Shown here in pieces: positions 6,747-27,934 of a DNA stretch of 35,115 bases. The translations under genes and the position numbers were made by a program. Position 1 is the first letter of the stretch; each line of letters begins with the position of its first letter. The notes under the pieces were generated by a model. It did no database searches, had not been told where the DNA came from, and saw only the letters and a list, made by a program, of their open reading frames with translations. The DNA is from Candidatus Thermoplasmatota archaeon (GTDB lineage: Archaea > Thermoplasmatota > Thermoplasmata > UBA10834). The stretch covers positions 1 through 35,115 of the forward strand of contig JAHIZT010000116.1 in NCBI GenBank assembly GCA_018814355.1. The letters are read 5' to 3'.

Positions 6747-7526
6747 TTAATCTTGCGATATCCTTGCGGTCCACTCGCATAGTTCGAGCCGTTCTCTGCG
6801 TGAAATCCGCTCCATCGCTTTTAGTATCCCAGAGCTGTACTGAGCGGCCTTCTTCGGTCTGTCATGTGAATGAAGGCCCATCATCCTGGCAGCCTCCCTC
6901 AGAACAAGCTTCCTGCCAGAATAGTTCACCTTCTCCTCAAGAGGCGTCTGCTCAGCAAATGAGACGACCTCCTTCGAGGCAAATGGAAACCCAATCCTTT
7001 TCCTTCTGGCAATTGCGAGTGCTTCCAGCAGTCGCGCTTCCTGCTGCATCTTCTCGAGGTCTACGGCCATCATTGAGCGAGGATCCTCAACGTATGAGTA
7101 TTTCGCATACCCTCCGAACAGTTCATCAGCCCCGTTGCCAGCCAGCACACACGCTTCATCACATCCTTCTAGCACGCACAAAATGGGAATTGAGTATGCT
7201 ATTCTGACAGGATCGGCCGAGCCGAGCAAGCTCGACGCCCTGGCGACCCAACCTACAAGCTCCTTCTCCCTAAGACTGATCACAAGGTGATCTACGCCGT
7301 CCTCTGCCGCATACTCGGTCGCCTTGAGTGAATCGAAAGACCCCTCAATCGCACAGGTGTAGCACCTAACTTCGGTGAACTCCAGGGCAATGGCAACTAT
7401 TATCGAACTGTCTACTCCCCCCGAGTATGCCACAGCGACGGCAGGCTCGCTACCAACTATGTTTCGAGTCGCTCCTTTCAGTCTGTTCAGAAGCCCGGTT
7501 GCGTCCATGGACGCATCAGTGACCAT
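6747..7526 (-). CDS. stand-alone asparagine-synthase-type ATP pyrophosphatase
   Basis: A 259-residue protein that corresponds only to the synthetase half of asparagine synthase B. It has the PP-loop VAYSGGVDSS (about 32-41) that binds ATP pyrophosphate, the second family motif GNGADELFGGYAKY (GDGADELFGGY in AsnB), and C-terminal helices (RKLVLREAARMMGL and PKKAAQYSSGI) that match the end of AsnB proteins. The N-terminal glutaminase domain with its catalytic Cys2 is absent, and no glutaminase gene is adjacent. It should therefore use ammonia, or ligate some other amine or sulfur donor to an adenylated acid. ATG 7526 is used; ATG 7508 is also possible. It sits upstream of folC on the same strand and diverges from the GTPase gene across a 174-base spacer. 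Confidence 0.8.
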   Translation of the reverse strand: MVTDASMDATGLLNRLKGATRNIVGSEPAVAVAYSGGVDSSIIVAIALEFTEVRCYTCAIEGSFDSLKATEYAAEDGVDHLVISLREKELVGWVARASSLLGSADPVRIAYSIPILCVLEGCDEACVLAGNGADELFGGYAKYSYVEDPRSMMAVDLEKMQQEARLLEALAIARRKRIGFPFASKEVVSFAEQTPLEEKVNYSGRKLVLREAARMMGLHSHDRPKKAAQYSSGILKAMERISRRERLELCEWTARISQD

Positions 7527-7601: not shown

Positions 7602-7623
7602 TCATCTGGAGACAGCCAGATGA
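7602..7623. promoter_or_regulatory. 22-base palindrome, operator-like
   Basis: Perfect 8-base inverted repeat TCATCTGG - 6 bases - CCAGATGA in the spacer between the divergent asparagine-synthase-like gene and the GTPase gene. It ends 10 bases before the TATA-like box of the GTPase. The symmetry and spacing suit a dimeric regulator that activates or modulates the GTPase promoter; this role is inference. Confidence 0.45.
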
Positions 7624-7632
7624 TTACCAAAG

Positions 7633-7641
7633 GCTTAAAAG
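7633..7641 (+). promoter_or_regulatory. TATA-like box of the GTPase gene, with downstream ribosome-binding site
   Basis: gcttaaaag lies about 64 bases before ATG 7701, giving a leader of roughly 38 bases. The leader contains GGAGGG (7688-7693), seven bases before the ATG. This is the clearest Shine-Dalgarno site in the window and it decides for ATG 7701 over the in-frame GTG at 7686. Confidence 0.5.
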
Positions 7642-7700
7642 CTGTAATTGGTATTTACCTGCAATCCTAGCTTTCGAACCCCCATGTGGAGGGCTCATTG

Positions 7701-8243
7701 ATGGCTGAAGACGACCTGATGAAAGTCAAAGTTTGCTTTATCGGAGATGCCGGCGTAGGCAAAACGAGCCTAATCAAGAGATTCGTGCTTGACGTGTTCG
7801 ACGATAGGTACATAGCCACCATCGGCACGAAGGTAACCAAGAAGATCGTGGACGTCGAGGGCCCCCAGGGCCAAGCCAAGGTAATGATGCTCGTCTGGGA
7901 CATCATGGGTCAGAAGGGGTTCAGAGAGCTTCTGCGTGAGGCCTACTTCTTCGGTGCTCATGGTGCGATAGCCGTGTGCGACCTCACGAATAAAGAGAGT
8001 CTCGAGGAGCTTAGGTACTGGATAAAGGCATTGACAGATGTCGCCGGCGATGTCCCGATAGTCTTCGCGGGGAACAAGGCGGATTTGGAGAACGACCGGG
8101 TCATCAAGGAGCAGGATCTGGAGGAACTGGCTGCCAAGTACAAGGCAAAGGCTCTCCTGACCAGCGCCAAGACCGGTCAGAACGTCGAGAGCGTGTTCAA
8201 GGCCCTTGCGTTGGCCATGTCCGAGAAGATGAAGTCGCAGTAG
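7701..8243 (+). CDS. Ras/Rab-like small GTPase
   Basis: A 180-residue GTPase with all five G boxes: G1 GDAGVGKT (15-22), a switch I threonine near 40-43, G3 WDIMGQ (66-71, eukaryotic WDTAGQ) including the glutamine used for hydrolysis, G4 NKAD (125-128) and G5 TSAK (154-157). The domain layout is Ras/Rab-like rather than translation-factor-like. There is no C-terminal cysteine for lipid attachment and no hydrophobic anchor, so membrane recruitment would need a partner. The strong ribosome-binding site GGAGGG supports the start. Its stop TAG (8241-8243) is followed closely by the gene for a surface protein with a cytosolic longin/roadblock-like tail, a fold that often binds such GTPases. A signalling pair is therefore plausible; this is inference. 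Confidence 0.92.
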   Translation: MAEDDLMKVKVCFIGDAGVGKTSLIKRFVLDVFDDRYIATIGTKVTKKIVDVEGPQGQAKVMMLVWDIMGQKGFRELLREAYFFGAHGAIAVCDLTNKESLEELRYWIKALTDVAGDVPIVFAGNKADLENDRVIKEQDLEELAAKYKAKALLTSAKTGQNVESVFKALALAMSEKMKSQ

Positions 8244-8282
8244 TGCGCCAGACCGTTCCCAACGTTGATAACGAGCAGAGAA

Positions 8283-8292
8283 TGCTTATAAG
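8283..8292 (+). promoter_or_regulatory. TATA-like box before the surface-protein gene
   Basis: tgcttataag, a near-consensus archaeal TATA sequence, about 40 bases after the GTPase stop codon. A second weaker box, ctatttatg, lies at 8304-8312. Either could drive the large surface-protein gene independently of the GTPase. Confidence 0.5.
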
Positions 8293-8311
8293 CCCAGCAT
8301 CGGCTATTTAT

Positions 8312-8326
8312 GCCTCTGCCAGAGGC
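8312..8326. promoter_or_regulatory. short inverted repeat near the surface-protein start
   Basis: GCCTCT-GCC-AGAGGC, a perfect 6-base inverted repeat with a 3-base loop, just downstream of the TATA-like boxes and 9 bases before GTG 8336. It could be an operator or an mRNA hairpin; no function is shown. Confidence 0.3.
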
Positions 8327-8335
8327 GGAATTGAA

Positions 8336-11300
8336 GTGGCCTTCAAAGTGAGCAAGAACCTTATAGCTGAGAGTAGCACCCGGTATCGCAGAAGCATGAG
8401 GCTACTTGCCGGACTCTTCGTCCTTCTCCTGATGGCATCTCCGGCCATCCCCATGTTCTACGACGTTGCGCACGATGTTCAGGCTGCCTCTTTGGATTCA
8501 TGGACCAAGGTGCTGCATCTACACGAGGGGGCCATATACACAACCGGGGACTATGATTGGCTGAACTCCACCGGGCCTTCAAATCCATCCAGCACGGACT
8601 ATGACCGTGACGGTGTTCCTGGAATCTCGATAAAGAAGAACGTCCCGCCGCAAAGGTGGCACCACTGGGTAATGTGGCCGTCTGCGAATTCGGATATCGT
8701 CATAACTGGCGATATTGACGCCAGAATATGGGCCAAGGACAAGGACAACGAGTCAGGGTCTCGGATAAGGGCCATCTTCTGGGATATGGGCCCAGGAGAA
8801 CTGGGCTCCCAGTCAATGTGGTCAGAGATAGGAAATGATACAGTCGACCTGCTCGGGGTCAACTACCCAGAGTACGATCTCAGCCACCTTACCGTGACAG
8901 TGGGTTCATACACGCTTGCTCAGGGTCACTCGCTCGTGCTTTCGATACAGAGGGGCGACTCCTACAACCAGTGGTTGTCCGTGATGTACGACACGAACGA
9001 CCTCGACTCCACGGTCACTCTTAGGACGAATGATTTCGTCTCAGTGGACACTGCCTGGACCGAGGACGCGAACAACCTCTCCAGGAGCACGTTCTCTGAC
9101 CAGGAGAGCGCTGTGGTCGTGGCCAATGTATCAGACCCATTCGGCGCATACGATATCACAAATGCGACAGCTGCCGTTTACTACCAGAGCAATGGGACGG
9201 CGGCTGTTCCATCCGAGGAGATGAGACTGGTGCGGACAGACCCGTCATCTGCGAAAGCTTGGAAACTATTCAATCACACCCTTCCTCTGCTCACTGCGGG
9301 GAACTACACTGTGAATGTCTCGGCCTCGGACCCTGGGGGCAGCCCCTCATGGCTCGCGCTGCCGTTGACGGTCGTCTCCGTCGACCACTTCAACGTGACC
9401 GCCCCAGCGGCGGTCGTCGCAGGCTCCCTATTCTCGATGACCATAACAGCGATGGACTCGTCTGACGCCATTGTCAGCGACTGGGTCGGCGCTGTCCAGT
9501 TGGAGGCCTTCAAAGCCGACATGACTACGCCCGGGAACGGTTCATTGGCAAACCAGTCCGTCTTCATCACGCCAGGTGATTCCGGGCAAATAGCAGTTGC
9601 AGACCAAAGCTATGGTTTCGGCGAGGAGACTATCAGGATCAAGGCTTCCGCGGGGACTCGCTACGGATGGAGCGGACTGATCTCCGTATCAAGCGGCCCT
9701 GTCGTGAATGTCACGCTCGTTCCATCAAGCACACAAACGATTGAATCGGGTTCCTCGCGGGGATTCACGGTAACTGGCAGAGACGCCAATGGTAACATCA
9801 ACACTGCGTGGACGCCGTCATGGACTTCCACGACTGACCTCGGCTCAATCGTCGGGGCAGGATTGTCTGTCGTGTTCATCGCGGACAAGGTCGGGTCAGG
9901 CTGGATTAACTGCTCCAACGCTGTAACAGGTGCAAACAACTCGACGGGGATAATCGTCGTTGCCGGCCTTCTTACTCGAATCGAGGTATCGCCGTCCACG
10001 CTCGTCATCAATGAATCTGAGACTCAGGCAATGACGGCTGTCGGATATGACTCGAAAGGAAACATCGTGAGCATTGCAGACGCTCGGTGGTACACAAACG
10101 TGGGATCTATCTCAGGGGTCGGGCCATCGGCTGTATTCACTGCCGGGTTCATGCCTGAGGTGGGAGCCATTGAGTGCCGCAAGGACAACATCGTTGGGTC
10201 CATCCAAGTCGAGGTCAAGACTGGCAGATGGAGCCCGTCATTGAGCCCTATCCCCATGCAGATTAGGAACGAGGACAGCGGCAGCTGGGAGCTTAGCCTA
10301 AGCGGCATTTGGCATAACCAGAATGGAACCTCGTTGCTCTCCTGGTGGGTCGAAGATGTGAACACGAGACTATACTTCGTGTCCCACGACCCATTGTCTA
10401 ACGCTGTCATGCAGTTCTACACTCAGCCGGATCAATCCGGCGATGACACATTCATTCTATGGGTTGTCAACCCGGACGGATATTGGGCTTATCAAGAAGT
10501 GACCGTCAGAATCATTCCAGTCAACGACAAGCCTGTATTCGTCAACAGCCCTCCCACGGAACTGTATGTCAAGTTCGACACGCCCTATACCTTCGACTAC
10601 AGCTACTTCGTCTCCGATGTGGATAACGCCCAGACCGAACTCTCCCTGAGCGTTACACCGTCGTCCGTCCAGAGTGACATCTTCTTCGATGGAATGATAG
10701 CTACTTTCATCTTCCCAAAGGAGGACGGCAACTCACCCTACTTCAAGATCGTGACGCTGACGGTATCCGACATCTCGGGCGCAAGCTCCGAAATGAGGCT
10801 AGTCGTCCGGGTCACCAACGACAACCCACCCGACATGACTACTAGCCTCCCAGATGTGACCATAAACGAAGGCGCCATGGACTTCTTCGTTTTCGATTTG
10901 GACGACTACTTCTACGACATCGACAGCGCCTTCCTGATCTACACATCCGGCTTCCAGCACATCACGGTGGACATAGACCCGATGACGCACCATGTCAACC
11001 TGTCGGCGCCTGAGGAATGGTCCGGGATCACTCAGGGGATGTTCACTGCCACCGATCCAGTGGGTGCGCTCAAGACGGATACAATAACGGTGACGGTCCT
11101 GCCGGTCAACGATCAACCTCAGGTTAGGAGTCCCGGAACAATCCACGTCAAGTACGATGTCCCATACTTCCTCTACCTCAGCCCTTACGTGACTGATCCC
11201 GACGACACCCTTGATTCTCTCACGTTCGTCTTCAACAACAGTAACGTCACGCACACGTCGACATTTGCGGGCAACCATCGTCTGGAGCTGAACTTCTCTG

Positions 11301-12538
11301 GGCCTGCGTCCGCAGTGCCGTACATGGCATATGTAAAGATGATTGTGAGCGATCCACAGGGGGCCTCAGCGCCATGCGACTTTGAGGTTCTGGTCACGGA
11401 CGATGAACCGCCTTCGGTCACTGTGCCCAACCCAGATCAAGTGTACTATTCGTTCCCCGAGGACACATACCTGAACAACACGATGCGGATGTACGACCTT
11501 TTTGCTGATCCTGATGACGCCTCCATGACCTTCCTGATATCAGGTGCGACGAATGTGCATTTCACGATATCCTCAGATGGCGTGGTCAACCTGACTGCCG
11601 AGGCGAACTGGTCCGGTATGGAGAAGATCGACATCACAGCTATCGATGACCGGGGTGGATGGGCGATGTTACAGGCCTATGTGATGGTGACGGAGGTCAA
11701 CGACGCGCCGTTTATCAAGAAGATTCCGGATGTGATCTCATCTGGTGGCTCGAGGAACTTCCGCATCCCGATATATCAATTCATCTTCGATTCCGACACT
11801 CCCTATTCGAAACTGGTCGTGACGGCGACTCCCCAAGACTCCACTGTGTCTGTCGTAGGCGAATACCTCTACATCAGCCTGCCCTCGGATCAAGATGTGG
11901 TCACGATCCAGATTCAAGCGTCCGACGGGGACTTGCTCTCGAACACCATGACATTCAAGGCCGGTGTGGCAAAGGACATCGCCCAGAAGATAGGTTGGCC
12001 GTACTCCTTCCCGCTCGTGCTCCTCGCAGCAGCCGTCGGTGCCTACTTCGTGTCTATCCGCATCCCGAGGCCCTACGCACTCGATAACCTGTTCTTAATA
12101 CACAACGACGGGAGGTTGGTCGCCCATGTGACCAGGGAAGAGAACATGACGCTGGACAAGGACATAGTGAGCGCCATGTTCACGGCTGTCCAGGAGTTCG
12201 TTCGCGACTCCTTCCAGAAGGGCGAGGTGGGCCTAAAGAAGCTCGAGATAGGCGAGAAGAGCGTCGTCATAGAGAAAGGGCAATCGACGTACCTCGCATT
12301 GATCTACGCGGGCTGGCCGCCTAAGGACACCTTCGACATGCTGTCAATGCTCCTCAGAGACATCGAGGAGCGCTACAAGGGAAGGCTCGAGAAGTGGAAC
12401 GGGACGATGAAGACCGTGAAGGGCGTTGACAAGATGCTTCAGGAGTATATGGCCAACGCCTTCAAGCCCGGGACCTGGCATGAAGAGGAAGAGATTGCCG
12501 AGGCGGAGTGGGTCGACATACTCGACAAAGAAGCCTAG
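8336..12538 (+). CDS. large surface protein: Ig-like and cadherin-like repeats, one TM helix, cytosolic longin/roadblock-like domain
   Basis: About 1,400 residues. A basic N-terminus and hydrophobic core (RLLAGLFVLLLMASPAIPMF, encoded from 8399) form a signal peptide. The ectodomain starts with a beta-rich region, then Ig-like/invasin-like modules (about 9385-10225; paired VTGRDANGNI and AVGYDSKGNI units). Cadherin-like repeats to about 11960 end in VNDKP, TNDNPP, VNDQP, TDDEPP and VNDAP. Many NxS/T sequons suggest N-glycosylation. One membrane helix (about 11995-12060, PLVLLAAAVGAYFV) is followed by about 158 cytosolic residues beginning YALDNLFLIHNDGRLVAHV. That tail has alternating beta strands and helices, is charged at the end, and looks to me like the longin/roadblock folds that bind small GTPases. 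It follows the Ras-like GTPase gene directly. The frame is open back to GTG 8243; GTG 8336 or 8348 fits the promoters, and ATG 8396 is the minimal signal-peptide start. Ligand unknown. Confidence 0.85.
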   Translation: MAFKVSKNLIAESSTRYRRSMRLLAGLFVLLLMASPAIPMFYDVAHDVQAASLDSWTKVLHLHEGAIYTTGDYDWLNSTGPSNPSSTDYDRDGVPGISIKKNVPPQRWHHWVMWPSANSDIVITGDIDARIWAKDKDNESGSRIRAIFWDMGPGELGSQSMWSEIGNDTVDLLGVNYPEYDLSHLTVTVGSYTLAQGHSLVLSIQRGDSYNQWLSVMYDTNDLDSTVTLRTNDFVSVDTAWTEDANNLSRSTFSDQESAVVVANVSDPFGAYDITNATAAVYYQSNGTAAVPSEEMRLVRTDPSSAKAWKLFNHTLPLLTAGNYTVNVSASDPGGSPSWLALPLTVVSVDHFNVTAPAAVVAGSLFSMTITAMDSSDAIVSDWVGAVQLEAFKADMTTPGNGSLANQSVFITPGDSGQIAVADQSYGFGEETIRIKASAGTRYGWSGLISVSSGPVVNVTLVPSSTQTIESGSSRGFTVTGRDANGNINTAWTPSWTSTTDLGSIVGAGLSVVFIADKVGSGWINCSNAVTGANNSTGIIVVAGLLTRIEVSPSTLVINESETQAMTAVGYDSKGNIVSIADARWYTNVGSISGVGPSAVFTAGFMPEVGAIECRKDNIVGSIQVEVKTGRWSPSLSPIPMQIRNEDSGSWELSLSGIWHNQNGTSLLSWWVEDVNTRLYFVSHDPLSNAVMQFYTQPDQSGDDTFILWVVNPDGYWAYQEVTVRIIPVNDKPVFVNSPPTELYVKFDTPYTFDYSYFVSDVDNAQTELSLSVTPSSVQSDIFFDGMIATFIFPKEDGNSPYFKIVTLTVSDISGASSEMRLVVRVTNDNPPDMTTSLPDVTINEGAMDFFVFDLDDYFYDIDSAFLIYTSGFQHITVDIDPMTHHVNLSAPEEWSGITQGMFTATDPVGALKTDTITVTVLPVNDQPQVRSPGTIHVKYDVPYFLYLSPYVTDPDDTLDSLTFVFNNSNVTHTSTFAGNHRLELNFSGPASAVPYMAYVKMIVSDPQGASAPCDFEVLVTDDEPPSVTVPNPDQVYYSFPEDTYLNNTMRMYDLFADPDDASMTFLISGATNVHFTISSDGVVNLTAEANWSGMEKIDITAIDDRGGWAMLQAYVMVTEVNDAPFIKKIPDVISSGGSRNFRIPIYQFIFDSDTPYSKLVVTATPQDSTVSVVGEYLYISLPSDQDVVTIQIQASDGDLLSNTMTFKAGVAKDIAQKIGWPYSFPLVLLAAAVGAYFVSIRIPRPYALDNLFLIHNDGRLVAHVTREENMTLDKDIVSAMFTAVQEFVRDSFQKGEVGLKKLEIGEKSVVIEKGQSTYLALIYAGWPPKDTFDMLSMLLRDIEERYKGRLEKWNGTMKTVKGVDKMLQEYMANAFKPGTWHEEEEIAEAEWVDILDKEA

Positions 12539-14232: not shown

Positions 14233-14267
14233 ACTGTTGGACCACGGATGCAGGCTATGCATTTAAG

Positions 14268-14276
14268 CTTATATAC
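14268..14276 (-). promoter_or_regulatory. TATA box of the DUF885 gene
   Basis: gtatataag on the minus strand, centred 40 bases before ATG 14232. It rules out the upstream in-frame ATG 14262. Confidence 0.6.
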
Positions 14277-14339
14277 TCAAGTCCCGCAAGCGAGCCCCTG
14301 GCGGGGCAGCCAGGGTTCAGCAGAAACCTTTCGCAAAGT

Positions 14340-14347
14340 CTTATACC
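14340..14347 (+). promoter_or_regulatory. TATA box of the permease gene
   Basis: cttatacc, 27-34 bases before ATG 14374, placing transcription start within a few bases of the start codon. It argues against the longer in-frame start at 14248. Confidence 0.6.
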
Positions 14348-14373
14348 TTGCACAAATCATCACATCCACCCAG

Positions 14374-16647
14374 ATGCCTAGCACACCCCCTAGCCAGACG
14401 GTTACTGTCACACTCAGGCGCGACCTGGGCCTCCTTGATGTAACGATGATCGGAGTGGGCGCGATGATAGGCACAAGCATCTTCGTGCTCATAGGCATCG
14501 CGACTCTGGAGATCGGAGCTGCTGTGATGATAGCGTTCGCCCTGAACGGCATCATGACGTTGTTCACCGCAGCTACCTATGCGGAGCTTGGGTCTTCGTT
14601 CCCTGAAGCTGGTGGCGGCTATCTCAGGGCCAAGAAGGGCCTTCCCAATCCGGCGGGGTTCATGTCCGGCTGGCTGTCGTGGTTCGGGCACACGGCCGCG
14701 TGCAGCTTCTACTCACTGGGTTTCGGATTTATGATGGTAGAGTTGTCGGACTATTTCAAATTCGATTTCCTTGGTCTATCCGATGATTTGATGATCAAGC
14801 TCTTTGCCGCCTTCGCAATCATGTTCTTCCTAGCAATCAACTACTCAGGAGTCGGTGCCACGGGCAAGATGGGAGACACCGTCACAATCATACAGGTCCT
14901 GATAATCGCTTTCTTCGTCGCGTTCGCCGTCCTCTATGCCCTCGACACGAAGGGGATCCATGTCATGGACAACTTCGAGCCGATCATCCCCGCTGACAAG
15001 AAGTTGACAGATGTTTTCCTCGTGATGGGGTTCACTTTCATCGCTTTCGAGGGTTACGAGATCATTGTGCAGTGTGGCGAAGAGGTCAAGGATCCTAGGA
15101 AGAACATACCCAAGGCAATCTTTATCTCAGTCGGGATTGCCGCTCTCCTGTACATCTCTGTCGCATTCGCCTGCATCTCCAACTTCAATGTCCCCATAGA
15201 GGGCGAGGGCGAGAGTTGGGTCATATACACAGCTACGCAGGTCATCCCTTTCGTGGGGGCGCCTCTACTGATCTTTGGCGGGATTCTGTCCGCAATGGCA
15301 GCGCTTAACGCAACGGTCTTCTCCTCGTCGAGAGTGAGTTTCGCTATGGGCAGGGACGGGTCCTTGCCGCGCGTCTTCGGCCACATCCACCACAGGAGGA
15401 GAGTCCCACACAAGGCCATCGCGATCACCGGTGGGATCATGCTCTTCATGGCCCTAGCCTTCCCCTTGCATGTTGTCGTCGCCTCAACGTCGATAGTGTT
15501 TCTCCTTCTGTTCTGCATTGCTAACATGTCATCCATCGCTCTCAGGAACCGGTTGACAGAGATCGACGTGGGATTCAGAACACCTCTGTTTCCTTTGTTT
15601 CCAGTGATCGGCGTGTTCACGACCCTTATCACCGCGGTCTACCTGTTCAATCTCGTCCCTGAGGGCTGGTACATTGCACTCGTCTGGATCGGCATCGGCC
15701 TGGCCGCCTCTGCCTTCGCGAAGCCCGAGGAGGAATACAAGTCCATAGCCGATCAGAAGAGAGTCCCGCAGAGGCCTCTCACAAAGGAACAGATCGAGCG
15801 ATACAGGGTCCTCCTCGCCTTAGAGAATTTGGGTGACCTCAGGCTAGTTGAGGTGGCTGGCATATTCGCGCGTTATTTCAATGGCGACCTGACCGTTAAC
15901 AAGGTCGTTGAGGTACCAAGGGCGATGCCCCTCGAGGCGATAAGCAAGGAATACATCGATGAGATATCCGGGGGCCTGAGGAAGACGATCAAGGTCGCCC
16001 CCTCGACAGTGATTGTAAGACCTGTGGTGTCCGTTTCGTACGATGTTGCCGGAGCCATATTGGATCAGACGAAACACGAGGCCGCCAATCTGTTGGTTCT
16101 GGGCTGGAAGGGTACCAGATTGCGCGGCAGGACGATCCTTGGGCGAAACCTGGACCGCGTCGTGAGGGAGGCGCCCTGCGACGTCGCGATAATCAAGACC
16201 AAGAGGCTCAGCAAGAACATTGAGAATATCCTCCTGGTCTCAGGCGGCTACATCGAGACCAGAAAGGCGTTGCTCCTCGCGCTTCCCATCGCAAGGGAGT
16301 TCGGAGCGAAGATCGAGATCCTTTCAGTAATCACCGATGACAGACAGGTCGAGCTCATGCGCGGGAACGCCGAGCGGCTGAGCAAGATGGCCGACCGTGT
16401 GAAGGTTCGAAACGAGGTGAAATTCGACCACTCGAAGTCTCTAGTTAGCGCGGTGATGGAACACTCACGTGACGCTGACATCTTGGTGATGGGCGCGGGT
16501 CCGCAATCTGCTCTCGAGAGGACATTGTTCGGGGCTGTCTACGACAGGATAATCCGGTCCTTGACGTCCCCGTGCTCGTGCTCAAGACTGCCAGAGTGGG
16601 GAAGCCGTCGACCTCAAGCGTATCTGCCCCATCGAGGCCGCCCGTAG
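14374..16647 (+). CDS. APC-family amino acid permease with two C-terminal universal stress protein domains; tail frameshifted
   Basis: A 757-residue membrane transporter. The N-terminal two thirds hold about 12 membrane helices with APC features: GLLDVTMIGVGAMIGTSIFVL in helix 1, ELGSSFPEAGGGY, and EEVKDPRKNIPKAI before a later helix. This indicates uptake or exchange of amino acids. From about 15790 come two tandem Usp domains, each with a nucleotide-binding-type GxxG tail: WKGTRLRGRTILGRNLDRVV and GAGPQSALERTLFGAVYDRI. After RIIRSL (to 16563) the frame reads TSPCSCSRLPEW and ends at 16647. The overlapping frame from 16563 reads DVPVLVLKTARVGK, the normal last Usp strand, and ends at 16661. 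A single-base loss, real or sequencing, has therefore probably altered the C-terminus. The transporter itself is unaffected. TATA box 14340-14347 supports the start. Confidence 0.9.
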   Translation: MPSTPPSQTVTVTLRRDLGLLDVTMIGVGAMIGTSIFVLIGIATLEIGAAVMIAFALNGIMTLFTAATYAELGSSFPEAGGGYLRAKKGLPNPAGFMSGWLSWFGHTAACSFYSLGFGFMMVELSDYFKFDFLGLSDDLMIKLFAAFAIMFFLAINYSGVGATGKMGDTVTIIQVLIIAFFVAFAVLYALDTKGIHVMDNFEPIIPADKKLTDVFLVMGFTFIAFEGYEIIVQCGEEVKDPRKNIPKAIFISVGIAALLYISVAFACISNFNVPIEGEGESWVIYTATQVIPFVGAPLLIFGGILSAMAALNATVFSSSRVSFAMGRDGSLPRVFGHIHHRRRVPHKAIAITGGIMLFMALAFPLHVVVASTSIVFLLLFCIANMSSIALRNRLTEIDVGFRTPLFPLFPVIGVFTTLITAVYLFNLVPEGWYIALVWIGIGLAASAFAKPEEEYKSIADQKRVPQRPLTKEQIERYRVLLALENLGDLRLVEVAGIFARYFNGDLTVNKVVEVPRAMPLEAISKEYIDEISGGLRKTIKVAPSTVIVRPVVSVSYDVAGAILDQTKHEAANLLVLGWKGTRLRGRTILGRNLDRVVREAPCDVAIIKTKRLSKNIENILLVSGGYIETRKALLLALPIAREFGAKIEILSVITDDRQVELMRGNAERLSKMADRVKVRNEVKFDHSKSLVSAVMEHSRDADILVMGAGPQSALERTLFGAVYDRIIRSLTSPCSCSRLPEWGSRRPQAYLPHRGRP

Positions 16648-26798: not shown

Positions 26799-26975
26799 TC
26801 TAACTGCACCATTTCTCAGTGGTTCGGCTCAGCCGGCGGAGGCCTGCTCGCAACGCCTCAGAGAGCGGTATGCGAGTCCGTCCAATCGGTCCATGCGGAC
26901 ACTCTGGCTCACGCATGTGCTTCTTGTTACTTAAGGGTGGCTCTCGATGGAAGTTGTACGACTGCACAGTCCCTG

Positions 26976-26986
26976 AAAAATTAAAG
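26976..26986 (+). promoter_or_regulatory. TATA-like box of the FtsZ-like gene
   Basis: aaaaattaaag, centred about 32 bases before ATG 27014. It supports that ATG over longer in-frame starts back to 26819, whose predicted N-terminus has no resemblance to the family. Confidence 0.5.
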
Positions 26987-27013
26987 TGGCTGCAGGGCTA
27001 TCATTGGCTCGGG

Positions 27014-27934
27014 ATGTCAAACTACAGGACCAGGTTTTTCCAGTCGCCAGACGATCAGCCCGTCCGAGCGAAACTATTCGGGATAGGCAGCGCCGGGTGC
27101 AACATCATCGAAGGAGTGGCATATCCAACAGTGGCATTCTCGACTTCGAGTGCCGACCTGGCCAGGTCGCACGCGGAAAGGAAGGTTCTCATAGGACAGG
27201 ACAGGTTGATCGGAGTCTCCGATTCGGATCCAGACATTGTCAGGCGCCTCCCATCTGTAGTCGGTCATGAACTGTTGGACGTGTTCAACAACACGGAGCT
27301 CGCTTTCCTGATGTGCGGCCTAGGCGGAACCACCGGTAGCCTTGGTGCGAAGATGTTCTCTTCTATCGCGAAAGCAAAGGGGGCGATGGGAGTAGTCTTC
27401 GCGGCGACGCCGTTCTCGGCAGAGAGCTTCAGAAGGAGAGAGGTGGCGTCAAAGACATTGAACGACCTTGAAAAGAGCTGTGCGTTATGCGTGGAGTTCG
27501 ACAACGACAAGCTATCTTCCTTGGCGCCGAACCTGCCGCTCTCAAGGGCATTCGGTATCCTGAACGGTATCATGCTGAGGCCAGTGATGGATCTTTCGAA
27601 GACAATGGCTAGGACCGATCTGAGCGTTTTCAAGCAGATCGTCGGGGATGCCACCTATGGGAGATTCGGGCTGGGGCTAGCCCGAGGAGACGATCGTGTC
27701 GAGAGGGTTGTTGATGAGGCGATGAGCTCACCATGGTTCGACTACGACCTGAATGAAGCGACCGCCGCCGTGACCGTCTATTCCGCTGCCGATCCTTGGG
27801 ACAAAGAGATGGACAAGATACTTGCCGGTATTGAGCAGAAGTTGCCCGGAGCAAGGACACTCTGGGGCATGTATGCGGACCCATCCCTTGGCGAAAGAAT
27901 TCGACTTAGCATCTTGCTCTGCAGAAAGAGATGA
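27014..27934 (+). CDS. divergent FtsZ/tubulin-superfamily protein
   Basis: A 306-residue protein that aligns with FtsZ from end to end: KLFGIGSAGCNIIEG (T1 loop, 20-34), a T4-like glycine loop CGLGGTTGSLGAKMF (101-115), GVVFAATPFSAESFRRR with a following LEKSCALCVEFDNDKL, ARGDDRVERVVDEAMSSP, and the C-terminal GMYADPSLGERIRLSILL. The catalytic features are altered. The T4 loop lacks the strict GGGTGTG. The T7 loop, NxDFADV in FtsZ, is RTDLSVF (200-206), keeping one Asp but losing the second and the Asn. The flexible FtsZ tail is absent. It probably binds nucleotide, but its GTPase activity and polymer formation are doubtful. It diverges from the antiporter gene and has no division-gene neighbour. 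It is a paralogue of FtsZ rather than the main FtsZ; CetZ-like identity is less likely. Confidence 0.85.
   Translation: MSNYRTRFFQSPDDQPVRAKLFGIGSAGCNIIEGVAYPTVAFSTSSADLARSHAERKVLIGQDRLIGVSDSDPDIVRRLPSVVGHELLDVFNNTELAFLMCGLGGTTGSLGAKMFSSIAKAKGAMGVVFAATPFSAESFRRREVASKTLNDLEKSCALCVEFDNDKLSSLAPNLPLSRAFGILNGIMLRPVMDLSKTMARTDLSVFKQIVGDATYGRFGLGLARGDDRVERVVDEAMSSPWFDYDLNEATAAVTVYSAADPWDKEMDKILAGIEQKLPGARTLWGMYADPSLGERIRLSILLCRKR

Follow-up and report, generated by a model that had tools for sequence, protein, structure and literature searches.

A candidate receptor-switch gene pair of a longin-tailed surface protein and a Ras-like GTPase in Thermoplasmatota archaea

Dimers of longin and roadblock domains act mainly as GEFs, and sometimes as GAPs, for Rab/Ras-like GTPases (PMC10933270). 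In the actinobacterial conservons (Cvn/Mfp) a sensor is linked within one operon to a Ras-like GTPase through a protein of the roadblock/longin superfamily, the four core genes encoding the histidine-kinase-like CvnA, the roadblock protein CvnB, CvnC and the GTPase CvnD (PMC13343842). MglA and MglB of Myxococcus likewise represent an adjacent small GTPase and a regulator of this superfamily, the latter being soluble and of roadblock topology. The eukaryotic TRAPP (Bet5/Trs23), Mon1-Ccz1, Fuz-Inturned, Ragulator and SRX-SRβ assemblies share with the proteins described here the longin or related roadblock fold and a Rab/Ras-like partner, in our case a presumed one. These eukaryotic platforms are cytosolic or peripheral complexes; we are aware of no case in which one makes up the tail of a huge adhesin-like protein at the cell surface. 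Archaeal longins have been discussed mainly for Asgards and, to our knowledge, almost nothing is known of Ras/Rab-like GTPase function in archaea. Asgard archaea possess both Rab-like GTPases and longin folds, the longins being soluble or fused to a GTPase and generally not in operons with GTPases (PMC10933270). Rab-like GTPases were reported in Thermoplasmatales and Aciduliprofundum with no mention of a longin partner (PMC4915359), and the Rup family GTPases also without one (PMC4316618).

In this work we present a locus from another archaeal phylum, in which the longin domain is operonic with a GTPase gene and membrane-anchored, as the tail of a surface protein. Two genes lie here where conservons have four, no kinase is present, the longin is the receptor's own tail and G3 of the GTPase has the canonical form. 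With no cvnA-D four-gene operon, only a two-gene cassette whose neighbours on either side run on the opposite strand (asparagine-synthase-like and DUF885), the locus was not assigned to the conservons, which by analogy may be its nearest functional counterpart. Assignment to MglA was also rejected: the GTPase keeps the aspartate of a standard DxxGQ G3 (WDIMGQ), and no MglB gene adjoins it. Our survey of the open-access literature, where nothing joins Thermoplasmatota, small GTPases and longins and the related work concerns Asgards, MglA, Rup and conservons, suggests that such a putative link between a longin-tailed surface receptor and a GTPase was previously unreported in these archaea.

The gene pair and its products

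The analysed stretch of DNA (the window, 35,115 nucleotides) belongs to a Thermoplasmatota draft genome of 2.06 Mb and 97% completeness, in which it lies on contig 116. The named MAGs nearest to this genome, PFL9 and UBA9653 among them, are from the Thermoplasmata/Thermoplasmatota. The pair comprises the following features.

7704..8243, + strand: Ras/Rab-like small GTPase, 179 aa (Pfam Ras, E = 1.7e-38; best PDB sequence match Rab26; motifs)
8244..8335, + strand: short intergenic gap ahead of the probable receptor start (relatives show homology from codon 8336 onwards)
8336..12538, + strand: giant surface protein crossing the membrane once, about 1400 aa if translated from the probable start (the ORF, open from 8243, has 1431 aa)
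8402..8458, + strand: signal-peptide-like hydrophobic segment LLAGLFVLLLMASPAIPMF, aa 54-72 (hydropathy 2.21)
8489..12007, + strand: extracellular region, Ig/cadherin-like (Pfam Big_9, Cadherin_4)
12008..12064, + strand: transmembrane helix FPLVLLAAAVGAYFVSIRI, aa 1256-1274, followed by basic residues on the cytosolic side (hydropathy 1.96)
12077..12451, + strand: predicted longin domain β1-β2-α1-β3-β4-β5-α2-α3 of the cytosolic tail (AlphaFold2, Foldseek)
12485..12532, + strand: acidic C-terminal helix, low confidence (pLDDT mostly below 60)

The GTPase reading frame spans 7686-8243 on the + strand and is open from GTG 7686, the start codon being probably ATG 7704. All five motifs, G1-G5, are intact and canonical (GDAGVGKTS, TIGT, WDIMGQ, NKAD, SAK), with motif conservation in 48 homologues, and with DxxGQ and NKxD among them the protein falls within the Ras superfamily. 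Its top match among PDB sequences is Rab26 (E = 2.3e-30) and the closest solved structures are Rabs. Membership in the Rab family was nevertheless rejected due to the absence of C-terminal prenylation cysteine(s), and the protein probably belongs with the archaeal Rab-like/Rup proteins. The C-terminal region (ending ...AMSEKMKSQ) contains no Cys and hence no lipidation cysteine, in agreement with the first-pass annotation, which had described a GTPase without membrane anchor.

For the surface protein, GTG 8336 is the likely start, about 92 nt past the GTPase stop, because relatives are homologous only from residue 32 of the reading frame onwards; the corresponding gap in relatives is of similar size, ~90-110 nt. 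The two genes are directly adjacent, as originally noted, with a probable short spacer rather than an immediate succession. The ectodomain matches Pfam Big_9 (E = 2.1e-7, over the cut-off) and, just under the cut-off, Cadherin_4; together with the one C-terminal transmembrane helix, this bears out the initial view of a giant single-pass protein with an Ig- and cadherin-like exterior. The cytosolic tail has the proposed 158 residues, and its correct frame starts at 12062, one nucleotide from the 12061 given before.

The tail is, by predicted structure, a longin domain. An AlphaFold2 model built on the family alignment (pLDDT 82, pTM 0.75) has the topology listed above, and a separately modelled paralogue has the identical order of strands and helices. 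Foldseek searching of the PDB with this model returned 26 matches at E ≤ 1e-3, longin- or roadblock-superfamily by description; a few of them are large assemblies, in which the matched chain was taken to be the roadblock light chain. The top-fitting matches are longins, namely Sec22b (TM 0.63/0.77), Ykt6 (0.61/0.71), VAMP7, AP sigma and COPI zeta, and the Ragulator and MglB roadblocks fit more poorly. Structure prediction and fold search had been set beforehand as a test of the tail, described by eye as longin/roadblock-like, and they returned no unrelated fold. The longin half of that description was upheld. Roadblock/LC7 identity (PF03259) was discarded, because the model lacks an N-terminal helix before β1 and the best fits are longins, the only Robl_LC7 scores being below the cut-off.

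At the sequence level the family is elusive. None of 37 members reaches a Pfam or NCBIfam cut-off, the best Pfam scores being weak (Fuz_longin_1, E = 0.021; Robl_LC7, 0.041; Intu_longin_1, 0.066), and searching the PDB sequences with a profile of the tail gave no meaningful match. One distant member scores 7.7e-4 with Robl_LC7 over the tail domain, at 19.6 bits against a cut-off of 23. Helix α1 is the most conserved element of the tail, and a W-x-G motif following α2 is invariant in the family.

Conservation and recurrence of the pairing

Whether the pair is adjacent in related genomes had been named as a further test, and the order is kept wherever it can be checked: in 22 of 22 genomes from three archaeal families (the family of the window itself, a single genome from the same order and one more family of the class) the pair is intact or broken only by contig ends. 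In these relatives the GTPase gene lies directly upstream of a full-length receptor orthologue, 24-57% identical over ~1,400 residues. Four apparent exceptions (G048, G016, G012, G006) are contig breaks and not rearrangements, the receptor beginning right after the GTPase and running into the contig end; genome G009 carries neither of the window-type genes. At the greatest distance identity amounts to 57% for the GTPase, 35-38% for the tail and 24-25% for the ectodomain. An arrangement held in 22 genomes by full-length orthologues that have diverged down to 24% identity led us to reject chance adjacency.

The association of longin tails with GTPases recurs independently. The window's genome contains a second, distinct pair (G000:C23), in which a 226-aa longin-tail protein with two transmembrane helices is followed by a 275-aa GTPase, and this short type is kept in nine relatives. 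The GTPase gene is convergent to the tail gene in DHVE2 archaea and directly downstream of it in G034 and G044. On the GTPase tree the upstream type (support 81/89) and the short type (99/97) each need one origin, and the other arrangements are placed elsewhere.

Co-occurrence was counted in a sample of 196 Thermoplasmatota genomes. The tail is found in 22 and a close GTPase homologue in 21, both being present in 20 of 23 occurrences, with two genomes having the tail only and one the GTPase only (Fisher p = 4.5e-24, a value that ignores phylogeny). A close homologue means here E < 1e-20, a line drawn after the list was seen; at the search threshold of 1e-10 eight additional, weaker GTPase-only genomes appear. 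Among 60 nearer genomes, 47 have both, one the tail only, three the GTPase only and nine neither. Physical adjacency shows no more than a mild enrichment in distant families (8 of 68 GTPases vs 2.6 expected), and therefore the partners are often encoded apart; within the window's own genome three of the five longin-tail genes have no neighbouring GTPase.

A possible receptor-switch mechanism and its competitors

Our main reading, to which we give a probability of roughly 0.6, is a two-gene receptor-switch module: a one-piece receptor or adhesin that spans the membrane once, with a cytosolic longin tail on which the Ras-like GTPase from the preceding gene, having no anchor of its own, would dock. 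Docking at the membrane is proposed because fold, partner, topology and gene order point to it together. The GTPase would then get to the membrane through the receptor only. Ligand-driven clustering of receptors may bring the tails together and let them dimerise through helix α1, thus building the platform, and engagement or clustering of the ectodomain would alter the nucleotide state or the local concentration of the GTPase, passing the signal on in the outside-in direction. The tail probably regulates the GTPase, for which we infer GEF-like exchange as likelier than GAP activity; some longins, such as those of SNAREs and adaptor subunits, do not regulate GTPases. The window pair is not in one frame, and a same-family in-frame pair (L140), read through its stops, served for a pseudo-fusion prediction. 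As a proxy with unpaired alignment rows it gave fair domains, a pTM of 0.59 and no confident relative orientation.

The signal could also run inside-out, with the GTPase binding the tail as its effector and controlling where the surface protein is placed, how it clusters or which adhesion state it takes, in a manner resembling MglA polarity or Rap1 control of integrins. Conservation of the pair and the fold data fit this direction equally well, and in SRX-SRβ a longin does serve as a GTPase effector. GTPases exceed tails in some genomes and tails exceed GTPases in others, which makes neither of them the upstream partner in any simple sense. The great diversity of ectodomains on a constant tail nonetheless looks more like a receptor family, and we consider inside-out control rather unlikely. 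Less probable still, in our opinion, is that stand-alone roadblock or V4R proteins regulate the GTPase, leaving the tail with an unrelated structural or sorting role and the adjacency as co-expression only. Such proteins are available, two Robl_LC7 and three V4R proteins scoring above the cut-off in the genome, and a V4R-DUF835 gene sits beside one of the GTPase genes. The roadblock gene at G000:C25, however, adjoins a V4R gene and not a GTPase, and this explanation also sits poorly with a longin-GTPase pairing found in several gene orders and different GTPase clades and with the near complete co-occurrence of the tail and the GTPase.

Should the receptor-switch reading be true, longin-GTPase coupling at the membrane exists outside the lineage leading to eukaryotes, and it could explain how surface contact is coupled to the cell interior in such archaea. 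Apart from mechanism, a longin family that neither Pfam nor NCBIfam contains is found on large surface proteins of a non-Asgard phylum, tied to Ras-like GTPases by gene order and co-occurrence, and the pairs offer cognate sets that can be expressed and tested.

Breadth of the tail family

Throughout the Thermoplasmatota genomes surveyed, up to 25 tail-domain matches and up to 37 GTPase matches were found per genome. The ectodomains are diverse and include integrin-like FG-GAP, PKD, CBM96, concanavalin-like, cadherin-like and DUF11 domains. A transmembrane helix lies just ahead of the tail domain in 74 of the 82 non-redundant single-domain proteins. Tentatively, with odds slightly short of even, the phylum as a whole may use one-component receptors of this kind, in which variable adhesin- or integrin-like ectodomains are joined through one transmembrane helix to a constant longin tail directly activating Ras-like GTPases; this would amount to an archaeal parallel, outside the Asgards, to receptor-to-Ras signalling. 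The family also includes multi-longin proteins, which are mostly without membrane helices.

Proteins with several longin domains

Longin domains recur within one chain in the following proteins:
L098:5994-12509, giant multi-longin protein
L086:4479-8561, giant multi-longin protein
L070:3783-10943, giant multi-longin protein
L150:3370-7968, giant multi-longin protein
L151:3334-5100, membrane protein ending C-terminally in two tandem longin domains (321-451 and 456-585)

Each giant protein carries two or three longin domains, spaced by about 505 residues in L098, L086 and L070 and about 455 in L150, with CARDB (Ig-like) matches in those of the four that were scanned. No membrane helix was predicted in any of the four, which are possibly soluble multi-longin scaffolds. 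The L151 protein, whose gene is convergent with a GTPase gene, is a longin pair occurring naturally within a single chain.

Ectodomains and copies of longin-tail proteins

FG-GAP (integrin-alpha type) and PKD repeats occur in the ectodomain of two longin-tail proteins:
L035:2395-7569
L053:3113-7549

At G000:C7 in the source genome (L036:1765-12277), longin-tail surface proteins of 1654 and 1664 residues are encoded in tandem, with no GTPase nearby; they likely arose by local duplication.

GTPases, V4R and roadblock genes

An extension of about 100 residues, without a Pfam match, is conserved after the GTPase domain in the GTPase of the second, short longin/GTPase pair (L037:7957-8784) and its relatives.

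In the source genome, a V4R-DUF835 protein gene abuts a further Ras-like GTPase gene (L136:3495-4938, G000:C76). Since V4R belongs to the TRAPPC3/Bet3 superfamily, this may be a second kind of GTPase-regulator pairing. At G000:C25 a stand-alone roadblock gene overlaps a V4R gene in a single operon (L161:1423-2182), with no GTPase gene beside it.

Other genes of the window

The window also encodes:
6747-7526, short (259 aa) asparagine-synthase-like protein, gene divergent from the GTPase gene
14248-16647, universal-stress-protein (Usp) domains fused to an amino-acid permease
26819-27934, 371-aa protein of the Tubulin/FtsZ family
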